DNA from: Melioribacteraceae bacterium
GTDB lineage: Bacteria > Bacteroidota > Ignavibacteria > Ignavibacteriales > Melioribacteraceae
NCBI GenBank assembly: GCA_015493615.1
Contig: WGCV01000027.1
Location: 1 to 64,000, forward strand
Direction: 5' to 3'
Length of the DNA stretch: 64,000 nt
In this document: positions 10,668 to 61,227 of the stretch, piece by piece
Numbering within the stretch: position 1 is the stretch's first letter
Layout of the letters: each line of letters starts with the position of its first letter
The notes under the pieces: generated by a model
Database searches by the model: none
What the model was told of the DNA's origin: nothing
The model's input: only the letters and a program-made list of their open reading frames with translations
Made by a program: the position numbers and the translations under genes

Positions 10668-10741
10668 TATCTCAAATTTTAGTTTTAAAAAATAAGGAAA
10701 AAAGATGTGTAATTATAATTTGAAAATAACAATTATTAAAA

Positions 10742-11691
10742 GAGACTTTTGCAGCACCTATAATTGTCATTTTGAGTCCGCCAAGCTTGCCCCAACTGCT
10801 TTTTGTTGAGGGAGGGAGAAGAATGACACATAAATTGTACCTTATCAGTAAACTTCGTGTTATTTTTGGCAGAATATTTTTCCGGATACTCTAAACTCCT
10901 TTATTTGTAGGGCTTTCAGAGATTGTTTTTTTGTTTAACTTTTCTCATGTTGTTACCGAATTGTCGGGGTTAGGTTTTATAAAGCTTTCTTATATTTGTT
11001 AAAAAAAATTATATTGAACTGCGTTCGCAGTTCTTGTGATTTGGAGAGATATCTCCTCTATGGGTTTCACCCATAGTTATTATAAATTTAAGCGCTTCGC
11101 GCTTTTGGCAGGCTACATATGAATTTTTGAATCTCACGATTTAAAAAACCGAGACCAAAAACATTATATATGAGAAGGCTTTACAAAACCTAATTTATAT
11201 GTGATTCTGATCCTCCTCCAAGTCGGAGCGAGAGAAGAATCTCAAAACCGGTAATTATACCGAATTTAGAGATATTTCGGACGGCTTACACTCCTCCTCC
11301 GCCTTGGCGGATTAGCGGATTGGCGGACTTAATATGACAAATCTGAGTTATGTAAAGGTTTCTATGAACAAACTAACTGCGAAGCAGTTAAATTTATAAT
11401 AGCCCCGAATTTAATTCGGGGTTAATGAAAGAAAGGAGAAATGCCAACTGCGAAGCAGTTGAATTAACGGAAACACTCTTTTCTATATTATCAAATTCGA
11501 GCTTGAATCTTTATCTTTTCAATGATTTATGTCCTTGGTGCCTTATTAGTAATATTCGTGTTATTTTTGGCAAAATATTTTTCCGGATACTCTAAACTCC
11601 TTTATTTGTAGGGCTTTCAGAGATTGTTTTTTTGTTCAACTTTTTCTCATGTTGTTCCCGATTTGTCCGGGTAAGGTTATACAAAGCTTTC
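10742..11691. repeat. compound repeat block (R2 + six-hairpin array R3 + nested MITE + R2) with possible TSD TAAAA
   Basis: The whole gap between mlaE and the cytochrome gene is repeats. The block starts with a MITE-type end (GAGACTTTTGCAGCACC). It then has repeat R2 (10837-10990, ACCTTATCAGTAAACTTCG … AAAGCTTTCT), hairpin array R3 (11016-11461, split by a MITE at 11174-11362) and a second R2 (11537-11692) in direct orientation. R3 hairpins lie at 11016-11033, 11058-11076, 11090-11104, 11375-11389, 11403-11421 and 11445-11461. TAAAA occurs at 10737-10741 and 11692-11696, which may mark insertion as one unit. No coding frame is apparent. A second R3+R2 module lies at 57238-57710. Confidence 0.7.
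11174..11362. mobile_element. MITE-like element, nested, TSD TATGA
   Basis: This 189-bp non-coding element runs from GAAGGCTTTACAAAACC to AAAGGTTTC, imperfect inverted ends. TATGA occurs on both sides (11169-11173 and 11363-11367). The matching repeat at 57 kb lacks it and shows one uninterrupted copy of the target (…AATATTTGATAAATC…). This supports insertion after the two repeat copies arose. Confidence 0.8.
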
Positions 11692-11712
11692 TAAAAATAT
11701 ATTGCCACAAAC

Positions 11713-13700: not shown

Positions 13701-13835
13701 AACTAACCTCCTGTTTTAGTGAATGAATGAATGGGTGTTAAGGCAAAAGATAATTAAGTCTTTTTATAAGATATTGCTTTTAATTAAAATAATCAAGAAG
13801 CCGGAGGATAGTTTTTCCAAAAAGAATTACTATTC

Positions 13836-13995
13836 GAGACCTTTGCAAAATCTAAATTTGTCATATTGAGTCCGCCAAGGCGGAGTGCAAGCCGTCCGAA
13901 ATATCTCTAAATTCGGTATATTTACTGGTTTTGAGATTCTTCTCCCGCCAAGGCGGGATCAGAATGACATATAAATTAGGTTATGCAAAGCCTTC
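13836..13995. mobile_element. MITE-like element, TSD TATTC
   Basis: A 160-bp non-coding copy runs from GAGACCTTTGCAAAATC to TTATGCAAAGCCTTC and is flanked by TATTC (13831-13835 and 13996-14000). Its ends are imperfect inverted repeats of about 30 bp. It contains the CCGCCAAGGCGG palindrome seen in other copies. It lies between the divergent cytochrome and lipoprotein genes. A false in-frame 5' extension of the lipoprotein ORF runs through it. Confidence 0.85.
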
Positions 13996-19962: not shown

Positions 19963-19988
19963 AAGGGCTAAATCATATCGTCTATGTG

Positions 19989-20170
19989 AGACCTTTGCAT
20001 AACCTGAATTTGTCATATTGAGTTTGCCAAAACCTAACCTTGACAAGCCGAGGACAAAAAAAATTAAAAGAGGAATGGGGGACAGAATCTCTGAAAGCCC
20101 TACTACTAAAGGACTTTAGAGTATTTAAAAACTATTCCGCCCAAAACAGCATGAATTTTACTGGTAAGGT
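19989..20170 (-). repeat. MITE end fused to an R2 repeat copy
   Basis: GAGACCTTTGCATAACC (from 19989, preceded by TATGT) starts as a normal MITE end. After about 40 bp it changes to a minus-orientation R2 copy (20027-20170) whose core GAATCTCTGAAAGCCC and AAAGGACTTTAGAG matches the other R2 copies. The same MITE-end/R2 junction type occurs at 10742-10990. It lies about 125 bp upstream of the cytochrome/T9SS gene and may contain or displace part of its promoter. Confidence 0.6.
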
Positions 20171-26290: not shown

Positions 26291-26343
26291 ATACTTTTTA
26301 TCATTGTGTACATGCAATGAGATGACAGTGTAATTATTTAAAA

Positions 26344-26494
26344 GAAACCTTTGCAAAACCTAAATTTGTCATATTGAGGACGGTGTAAGCCGTCCGAAAT
26401 ATCTCTAAATTCGGTATAATTACCGGTTTTGAGATTCTTCATTCCGCTTCGCTCAATTCAGAATGACAAATAAATTTGGTTATGCAAAGGCTTC
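26344..26494. mobile_element. MITE-like element, TSD TAAAA
   Basis: A 151-bp copy runs from GAAACCTTTGCAAAACC to GGTTATGCAAAGGCTTC, with TAAAA on both sides (26339-26343 and 26495-26499). The internal region shares AATATCTCTAAATTCGGTAT with the copies at 11174 and 13836. Confidence 0.87.
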
Positions 26495-42443: not shown

Positions 42444-42504
42444 CTTAAATTTCCTTTTTCACAAAAATTATTTTTCGATTCCTTATTTAAATATAACTTT
42501 ATTA

Positions 42505-42665
42505 GAAACCTTTGCAAAACCTAAAATTGTCATATTTAGCCCGCCGCCGCTGAGCCGGAAACCGTCAGGAATATCTCGAAATTCGGTTTGGTTCCCGGTT
42601 CTGAGTTTCTTATCCCGACAGTGCGGGATCCGGAATGACACGATATCAGATTATGCAGAACCTTT
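42505..42665. mobile_element. MITE-like element, diverged, TSD TATTA/TATTG
   Basis: A 161-bp copy runs from GAAACCTTTGCAAAACC to ATGCAGAACCTTT. TATTA precedes it (42500-42504) and TATTG follows (42666-42670), a 4/5 match. Its interior is more diverged than the other complete copies, so it is probably older. Confidence 0.7.
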
Positions 42666-43940: not shown

Positions 43941-43998
43941 AATTTCTCCTGTAATATTTTTACCGTAATGTATTAAAAATCTTTGTCAAATCTCCCAC

Positions 43999-44131
43999 GG
44001 TTAATAAACCTTCGAGGTTTAACTGACTTATTTAGAAATTCGCTATTTACAAAGCAATAAACAAATTTTTAATATTTACTGAATATAAAAACCTCGAAGG
44101 TTTTTCCAAAACGTGTAAATTATCTCAAATT
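43999..44131. repeat. 133-bp direct repeat, unit 1
   Basis: Begins GGTTAATAAACCTTCGAGG and ends TTATCTCAAATT. It carries AAACCT-TCG-AGGTTT near the start and AAACCT-CGA-AGGTTT near the end, opposite-handed forms of one hairpin. Unit 2 at 44195-44327 is the same length and differs at about two positions. Confidence 0.9.
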
Positions 44132-44194
44132 ATCTGTTTCTTCTCCCACCAAAGCGGGAACAGAATAACATATTACTATGTTATGAAAACCTCC

Positions 44195-44327
44195 GGTTAA
44201 TAAACCTTCGAGGTTTAACTGACTTATTTAGAAATTCGCTATTTACAAAGCAATTAACAAATTTTCAATATTTACTGAATATAAAAACCTCGAAGGTTTT
44301 TCCAAAACGTGTAAATTATCTCAAATT
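44195..44327. repeat. 133-bp direct repeat, unit 2, overlapping the symporter stop codon
   Basis: Near-identical to unit 1. Its last bases supply the final codons (…NLR, stop) of the symporter gene ending at 44316. The 63 bp between the units contain a piece resembling the MITE right half (TTCTCCCACCAAAGCGGG…). A BIME-like duplication is the simplest reading. Confidence 0.9.
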
Positions 44328-56587: not shown

Positions 56588-57237
56588 CTTTAACCTACAT
56601 AAATTTTATTATCATTTCCAAAAATAAAAGATTTTAATAAATAAGGGATAATTTTAAAGATTTATATTACAGTAGAGAGCGCAAGTATAATTTAGAAGGC
56701 AAAACAGTAACCCCAGCAAGTCCCAATAACAATATCAAATTAGGCGAAAGTATTCGGTGTCATTCTGTATGACAAATATAAGCCGGATTTAAATATTGTC
56801 ATTCTGAGTCCTCGACAAAGTCGAGGGCGAAGAATCTCTAAGTTAGAACTGACGCCGGTACAGGACATGAGATTCTTCTCCCGCCAAAAAACGGCGGAAT
56901 CAGAATGACAGCTTAGGGTTCGTATTAACCTAAAATTGTCCTAGCGCAGTGTAGCCGAAAACCAAGTAAAAGGCGGAAAAAGGTTCAAAGGCACAGAGGC
57001 GCAAAGGTTTAAAGATCTTTCGTTTTGGGGAATTAATCATATCATCAAAAATCATAAAATAATCTGCGGAATCAGCGTCCCATTTATAAGCCGCTAATAC
57101 ACGAATAATTTCAAGACAGTTTACCGCTTACTCCGCTAAGGCGGACCAGAATTTACTCCGACTGCTTTTCGTTGGGATGACATATTACGGGGTTGTGTAA
57201 AGCCTTCTTCTATTTACTAAAAATAGAAAAATTAATT
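56588..57237. repeat. repeat-rich spacer, part 1
   Basis: This spacer has no gene. A palindromic repeat with TCATTCTGAGTCCTCGAC, GAAGAATCTC and GAGATTCTTC arms is at 56801-56914. A segment near 56970-57010 (AAAGGCACAGAGGCGCAAAGG) is the complement of sequence near 21140-21170. A MITE right end (TGTAAAGCCTTC) closes at 57208. A possible left end, GAAGGCAAAACAG, is at 56696, but no matching target duplication is clear. Confidence 0.55.
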
Positions 57238-57710
57238 GAACTGCATTCGCAGTTCTTGTGATTTGGAGATACGCCTTCTCTATGGGTTTCACCCATAGTT
57301 ATTATCAATTAAAGTGCTTCACACTTTTGGCAGACAATATTTGAATTATTAAGTCTCGTGGTTTGCAAAAACCAAAGCCGAACAATTAATATTTGATAAA
57401 TCTAACTGCGAAGCAGTTAAATTTATAATAGCCCCGAATTCAATTCGGGGTTAATGAAAAAAAACAATGCCAACTGCAAAGCAGTTGAATTGGCGAAAAC
57501 ACTCTAACATCAAATTTGAACTTGCAGTATTATTTTCTCTATGGTTTTTCTCCATTGTACCTTATCAGTAAAATTCGAGTAATTTTGGTAGAACATTTCC
57601 TCAAATACCTTAAAGTTCTTTGTTGGTAAGGATTTCAGAGATTATTATTTAGTTAACATTTTCCTCCTTTTGATTCCGGCTTGTTCAGGTTAGTTTTTAC
57701 AAAGTCTTCT
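57238..57710. repeat. second R3 hairpin array + R2 module
   Basis: R3 here (57238-57487) has the same six hairpins as the copy at 11016-11461: GAACTGC-ATTC-GCAGTTC, CTATGGGT-TTC-ACCCATAG, AAGTG-CTTCA-CACTT, AACTGC-GAA-GCAGTT, CCCCGAAT-TCA-ATTCGGGG and CAACTGC-AAA-GCAGTTG. R2 follows at 57557-57710. This copy lacks the MITE found in the 11-kb copy. No frame of useful length is present. Confidence 0.75.
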
Positions 57711-57731
57711 TAAAATTTAAATTAGCAATTC

Positions 57732-60959: not shown

Positions 60960-61119
60960 TGTCATTCTGAATGGAGCAAAGCGGAATCCGCCGCGGCGGA
61001 AGAATCTCAGAATCGAAAATCAAACCCAATTTAGAGATATTCCGGACGGCTTACACTCCTCCTCCGCCTTGGCGGATTGGCGGACTCAATATGACAACTA
61101 TAGGTTTTGCAAAGGTTTC
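60960..61119. repeat. MITE-family fragment, one good end
   Basis: The right end TTTTGCAAAGGTTTC at 61119, followed by TATTA, and the internal AATTTAGAGATATTCCGGACGG and CTCCTCCGCCTTGGCGG match the nested copy at 11174-11362. The left end is replaced by GATGTCATTCTGAATGG. With 60800-60932, it fills the gap upstream of the M16 gene. Confidence 0.6.
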
Positions 61120-61227
61120 TATTAAAGAGATCCATTGCTCCGCTCTGAATAAGAAATTTTTTCTTTCAGAAACTAAACTTTTTCCTCAATAGTTCGATAA
61201 TGTAAATAGAATCAAAAAAGTGGAACC

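Follow-up and report, generated by a model that had tools for sequence, protein, structure and literature searches.

Which function a dense array of short hairpins serves in intergenic DNA, and whether an enzyme of the same genome acts on it, are the questions raised by positions 57238–57487 of the window analyzed here, the first 64,000 nucleotides of contig WGCV01000027.1 (assembly GCA_015493615.1) from a Melioribacteraceae bacterium of the Ignavibacteria. Our comparison suggests that the array is a doublet of a three-hairpin unit akin to repetitive extragenic palindromes (REPs), arranged like bacterial interspersed mosaic elements (BIMEs) or REP doublets forming hairpins (REPINs), and that its cognate enzyme is a subclass 1.2 Y1 transposase encoded on contig 35 (C35), which would act on and move the units; we assign this reading a probability of about 0.75.

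The array holds six perfect short hairpins plus a weaker seventh in the spacer (Table 1), and visual inspection showed hairpins comparable to the seventh in the spacers of certain other copies, for example cggttt-ACAA-aaaccg at C38. The initial annotation had described six hairpins with unrelated stems and GAA/TTC-type loops, and this description holds: the seven hairpins compare with a maximum of two when the same bases were dinucleotide-shuffled 2,000 times (none in 1,731 trials, one in 257 and two in 12). No other stretch of the window is as rich in hairpins, and the single-strand DNA fold of the array reaches z = –7.1 against shuffles. By comparison, the motif GCGAAGC, said to recur in several hairpins, does so only when both window copies of the array are taken together; it or its complement lies inside hairpins at 11094, 11379, 11450 and 57408, that is, in one of the six at 57238–57487, and also at six unrelated places. 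The six hairpins are two three-hairpin units (A-B-A) inverted to each other, and a window search with R1, the covariance model used to detect the triplets, returned exactly four units with none further at E < 0.1. Both window copies of the array are intergenic. A CRISPR-like array was rejected, as the repeats are inverted and the stems unrelated.

The window itself contains no Y1 gene, and a Y1 transposase search of the whole genome returned five. One of these, at C35:1956–2402, sits between two arrays, with the order H1 H2 H3 - H3' H2' H1' - gene - H1 H2 H3 - H3' H2' H1' on the gene strand. Its protein of 148 residues carries the motifs DHIH, WQ and YIINQSEHH, exceeds the cut-off of the NCBI IS200 model (NF033573, 59.9 bits versus 55), matches PF01797, and is related to the IS608 TnpA of known structure (2a6m, E 3.5e-5). 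The NCBIfam model REP_Tyr_transpos, which represents REP-associated tyrosine transposases (RAYTs), does not match the C35 protein, and a relative at locus L090 scores 24 bits against a cut-off of 80. The features that define TnpA-Y1 subclass 1.2 (DH[IV]H, WQ, Y---Q--HH and about 148 amino acids) are present in the C35 protein and in nearly all of the 79 loci described below, and by these sequence features the enzyme falls within subclass 1.2 as defined by Quentin et al. (2018). The search for a RAYT or retron-like gene that the initial annotation had proposed thus yielded a Y1 gene, albeit an IS200-like one of subclass 1.2 and not a canonical RAYT, and no reverse transcriptase as far as the assembly reaches.

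Scanning GTDB genomes with the C35 protein gave 79 loci in Ignavibacteria, Bacteroidota, Chlorobiota, Calditrichota, Neomarinimicrobiota, Zixibacteria, Verrucomicrobiota, Cloacimonadota and Thiotrichaceae. Within 200 bp of the gene, hairpins in these loci average 2.0 on the upstream and 2.3 on the downstream side, compared with 0.12 and 0.20 per 200 bp two kilobases away and 0.06–0.07 in shuffles. Read on the coding strand, the upstream hairpins have GAA loops and the downstream ones TTC loops. The layout is mirrored (H3-H2-H1-gene-H1-H2-H3); 42 loci have a full triplet of narrow spacing on the downstream side and 35 have one on the upstream side. A typical triplet consists of A (7 bp), about 21 nt, B (8 bp), about 12 nt starting C/T-TATT, and a second A (6–7 bp). 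Aligning 51 triplets gave pairing in 95.4% of cells versus 71.6% in shuffles, a share that is biased, as the triplets were picked for folding; the hairpin counts around the 79 genes are free of that selection. Both-side changes were found in 19 of the 21 pairs, and compensated cells number 252 versus 63.5 in shuffles (reached in 0 of 500) and at most 49 with slid partners. Our alignment therefore reveals that stems change freely, whereas pairing, GAA/TTC loops and spacing persist. Within the genus of the present genome alone, covariation is weak, most pairs being nearly invariant. The claim that structure is kept while sequence changes is thus borne out by the cross-phylum alignment, the two window copies alone proving little, and the survey of relatives recovered many further copies with pairing kept rather than none or copies with decaying stems. 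The change of hairpin 3 between the window copies, from AAGCGC/GCGCTT to AAGTGC/ACACTT, which the initial annotation described as keeping the pairing, is real, but the closing C-G pair is lost; the changed hairpin has the stem AAAGTG/CACTTT and a five-base CTTCA loop, and such a loop is also present in relatives.

In our tree the triplet-associated Y1 proteins form one fully supported clade (80 rows, 100/100) that excludes more distant subclass-1.2 proteins; the C35 gene is the single member of this clade in the present genome. Among 39 genomes of the genus, family and order, R1 detected 47 units in the present genome, 94 in G006, 20 in G004, 5 in G013 and 0–2 in the others; the close Y1 clade is represented in the present genome, by two genes in G006 and by a broken gene among triplets in G013. 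All of 20 further genomes chosen for a clade gene hold triplets, 3–104 each, one of them (G039) appearing to equal G006 from coordinates in common. In a phylum survey of 247 genomes drawn evenly, with triplets scored at E up to 1e-5 and broken clade genes counted, triplets were present in 15 of 16 genomes with a clade gene versus 10 of 231 without one (Fisher p = 1.3e-16); the unit counts in this survey follow a stricter filter, under which a value of 16 means at least 16. Among the matches listed for these genomes, the clade gene is mostly one per genome. Genomes of the genus, family and order set that hold only Y1s outside the clade mostly lack the unit. In G068, at least 14 units accompany a Y1 that is merely 45% identical. 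The association of the three-hairpin unit with the Y1 clade is strong. The proposal that the array is a folded single-stranded DNA substrate of a Y1/TnpA-REP-type enzyme, made in the initial annotation, accordingly gains support as a putative role from the Y1 gene between arrays, the clade-wide flanking and co-occurrence, and the covarying stems.

The sequence at the hairpin feet indicates how such a substrate might be read. In REPtrons, single-stranded REP hairpins are cut by TnpA-REP, whose choice of cleavage site is aided by a tetranucleotide lying 5' of the hairpin (PMC8266576). Of 71 triplets, 39 have RTAR at the foot of hairpin B when read on the GAA strand, where base composition predicts 3.3, and none has it on the other strand; the foot reads ATAG in 22, ATAA in 10 and GTAG in 6, and hairpin 5 of the window has ATAG immediately 5' of its foot. 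The A hairpins carry RTT on the TTC strand. Because these foot motifs are asymmetric between the strands, they suggest a strand-specific substrate. In a possible mechanism, the unit would most likely become single-stranded, on the lagging strand or by extrusion, and fold. The Y1 enzyme would bind the hairpins through the conserved GAA loops and flanking conserved sequence, with RTAR 5' of hairpin B (GAA strand) and RTT 5' of the A hairpins (other strand) as candidate guides, and would cleave and rejoin DNA beside them; units would be copied or moved to other intergenic sites, and the gene would stay put. Binding, cleavage, strand choice and mobilization by Y1 are what we infer.

The arrangement of the units resembles that of REPtrons, in which a TnpA-REP or RAYT gene accompanies REPs, BIMEs or REPINs. 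In both systems a low-copy HUH-Y1 gene is flanked by hairpins, the same hairpins are dispersed intergenically in tens, paired and alternating in orientation as inverted pairs or BIME/REPIN-type clusters, and a conserved tetranucleotide lies 5' of one hairpin foot. By comparison, the unit has three hairpins here and one in REPtrons, the foot is mostly ATAG/ATAA instead of the related but distinct GT[AG]G, and the protein is of class 1 (Y...Q..HH) whereas TnpA-REP is of class 2 with Y..NP. We read the array as a REP/BIME-like, non-autonomous candidate substrate of the C35 Y1, and not as a retron, a canonical GTAG REP or an ordinary IS200. As described in the reference classification (Quentin et al., 2018; PMC6006769), subclass 1.2 shares with our proteins the 148 amino acids, DH[IV]H, WQ and Y---Q--HH motifs, low copy number and occurrence in Bacteroidota, and is presented as lacking REPs and generally also IS200-type terminal structures. 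The published trait of no REP-like structures at the gene is contradicted by the hairpin excess and mirrored triplets flanking subclass 1.2 genes, and, relative to that description, the present clade differs in its conserved three-hairpin set on each side, its dispersed copies and its further phyla. Our search of the open literature, subscription papers and preprints lying outside it, found no later paper pairing subclass 1.2 with a hairpin partner. Subclass 2.6 ('atypical secondary structures') likewise has Bacteroidetes hosts and non-GTAG structures copied elsewhere in the genome, but its protein has NH[LIV]H and YIH[QN]NP, and the text of the classification does not present its structures as a three-hairpin unit. 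TIRYT/TIRtron systems (PMC3733652) also have a Y1 gene flanked by inverted repeats, which can be multi-copy, but the proteins of these systems are mainly of subclass 2.1 and the terminal repeats of GGGGWSAS type, not hairpin triplets.

The distribution of copies indicates that the units have spread. A whole-genome blast search with the array returned 33 pieces at about 20 places with 72–92% identity. In G006, triplets switch orientation every 120–130 bp both in the surroundings of the gene and in a separate cluster of ten units (C24 and C4 clusters), and compact inverted doublets occur at scattered sites. Belliella calami carries single triplets at scattered places, with flank similarity dropping outside most of them and one subfamily sharing about 50 nt upstream. 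At two B. calami sites, whose flanks are 94–98% identical to B. alkalica, triplets are absent from four relatives (B. alkalica, B. aquatica, Mongoliibacter and Algoriphagus); since only B. calami has triplets at both sites, the comparison argues for a gain in its lineage.

Several observations weigh against our reading. The genome G129 has a clade gene and no detected unit, ten genomes hold units without a clade gene, and the 85%-complete assembly of G004 contains 20 units and no clade-1.2a gene that we could find. A clean empty site was sought at the two Belliella sites in the four relatives, and no exact junction was recovered, as the intergenic DNA is rearranged there and other repeats hide the junctions. 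Furthermore, some doublets, namely those at own C10 and C51 and several of G006, are enclosed, as judged by eye, by terminal inverted repeats that start with GGCTAA, and two G006 copies (L202 and L203) show, again by eye, apparent 8-bp target duplications. Because doublets sit in such inverted-repeat miniature inverted-repeat transposable elements (MITEs) with apparent duplications, a DDE transposase probably moved these GGCTAA-bordered copies. Extended to all copies, this becomes the idea that DDE-type MITEs carry the array along as a passenger, with DDE transposases spreading its copies via the flanking inverted repeats, and that the Y1 link marks its place of origin only. The GGCTAA...TTAGCC repeats in two genera, the A+T-rich character of the G006 duplications and the 160-bp direct repeat that often borders main-family copies in the present genome fit this idea. 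We nevertheless regard it as quite improbable: no such inverted repeats or duplications are evident by eye at the window copies, the gene clusters (L038 and L206) or the Belliella units, the last being dispersed singly with mostly unrelated flanks, and hitch-hiking leaves unexplained both the covariation and the clade-specific co-occurrence over many phyla.

The triplets might alternatively be the left and right ends (LE and RE) of an ordinary IS200/IS605-type element, gene-less arrays being decayed or internally deleted copies. The score above the IS200 cut-off, the kinship with IS608 TnpA and the hairpin sets on both sides of the gene are expected of elements such as IS608 and ISDra2, which have a related class-1 HUH-Y1 transposase and hairpins beside the gene. 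Those elements, however, have one subterminal hairpin per end (PMC6006769) and not three mirrored ones, the doublets here run RE-spacer-LE and not LE-RE, the G006 units alternate in clusters, and the gene has not been multiplied (one clade gene in the present genome, two in G006) whereas the units number in tens; we consider this explanation unlikely. Very improbable, in our judgment, is that the hairpins act as RNA, stabilizing mRNA, terminating transcription or forming a structured RNA, with the Y1 gene merely tolerating them. REPs are known to influence mRNA stability and termination (PMC6006769) and pairing is conserved here, but the units are dispersed in many copies in both, alternating orientations, their presence tracks the Y1 clade, and no Rfam family exceeds its thresholds at the array. 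The retron or multi-stem RNA that the initial annotation had offered as an alternative likewise lacks support: beside the missing Rfam match, the 96.8%-complete genome gave no hit to the reverse transcriptase family PF00078, and a retron is rejected as far as the assembly reaches.

A second subclass-1.2 gene of the same genome bears on whether the pairing of Y1 gene and hairpin family extends further. The palindrome GCTCCGTAGGAGC is present in 84 exact copies genome-wide (control pattern, 0); seven of them flank the gene at C52:7904–8341 (7326, 7376, 7815 and 7866 on one side, 8365, 8415 and 8904 on the other), with copies at C52:7326–8916 in pairs about 50 bp apart. The palindrome and this gene form a candidate second REPtron-like pair, and, because GCTCCGTAGGAGC clusters at a second subclass-1.2 gene, the pairing of each such gene with a hairpin family of its own may be a general rule. 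We tentatively suggest, with doubt somewhat outweighing confidence, that subclass 1.2 is a third branch of single-stranded DNA transposition beside IS200/IS605 and TnpA-REP, in which the recognition unit is a composite A-B-A triplet with GAA loops that moves as a whole, the gene remains in place and every clade possesses a hairpin family particular to it. HUH enzymes left without a substrate by the reference classification gain a specific, covarying candidate, which is present in several cultured bacteria (Belliella, Emticicia, Cyclobacterium and Spirosoma). If Y1 cleaves the triplets, REP-like transposase domestication arose on the IS200 side too, and the triplets would offer a new system for how hairpin loops and short guide sequences direct single-stranded DNA cleavage. 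A third Y1 gene, which is IS200-like (L053, own C51:13292–13693) and also found in G004 (L198), has longer flanking hairpins with TTTA and TGAA loops and is probably of conventional IS200 type.

Table 1. Hairpins, three-hairpin units and associated repeats in the window
Feature	Position	Strand	Sequence or evidence
Hairpin 1	57238-57255		gaactgc-ATTC-gcagttc
Hairpin 2	57280-57298		ctatgggt-TTC-acccatag
Hairpin 3	57311-57327		aaagtg-CTTCA-cacttt
Weaker spacer hairpin, between both units	57359-57374	.	tggttt-GCAA-aaacca
Hairpin 4	57403-57419		taactgc-GAA-gcagtta
Hairpin 5	57432-57450		ccccgaat-TCA-attcgggg
Hairpin 6	57471-57487		caactgc-AAA-gcagttg
Three-hairpin unit A-B-A, forward (hairpins 1-3)	57232..57333	+	covariance model R1, 63.6 bits, E 7e-10
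Three-hairpin unit, inverted (hairpins 4-6)	57397..57493	-	R1, 75.6 bits, E 5e-12
Second copy, forward three-hairpin unit	11010..11111	+	R1, 69.7 bits, E 6e-11
Second copy, inverted three-hairpin unit	11368..11467	-	R1, 77.4 bits, E 2e-12
Foreign MITE-like repeat splitting second copy, outside the system	11174..11363	.	ends GAAGGCTTTACAAAACC / GGTTTC-type; repeat families D7 + D11, blast-match break
Palindrome GCTCCGTAGGAGC	19842, 19900, 19950		

The second copy of the array (11016–11461) is split, its blast matches covering 11005–11166 and 11365–11469 with a different repeat between them. An abundant MITE-like family with ends GA(A/G)ACCTTTGCAAAACC occurs in the window at 10725–10785, 11174–11363, 13819–13942, 19971–20031, 26327–26440, 42488–42612 and 60999–61125. 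The 160-bp repeat that borders many arrays (window 10837–10992, 11522–11701 and 57540–57725) ends in GAAAGCTTTACAAAACC, which resembles a terminal inverted repeat, and could represent the right-hand portion of an IS5-like MITE; as a marker of array ends it was rejected, since it is itself present about 40 times in the genome and adjoins only a subset of the arrays. An element of about 388 bp with inverted repeats GGCTAAATTATTTTTTGATGTGCT of about 24 bp surrounds a six-hairpin array at L052 (own C10), L051 (own C51) and L084 (G004), the C10 element being inverted relative to the matching G004 locus. In addition, window positions 43998–44327 contain a 134-bp direct repeat in two copies, 99% identical and 196 bp apart.
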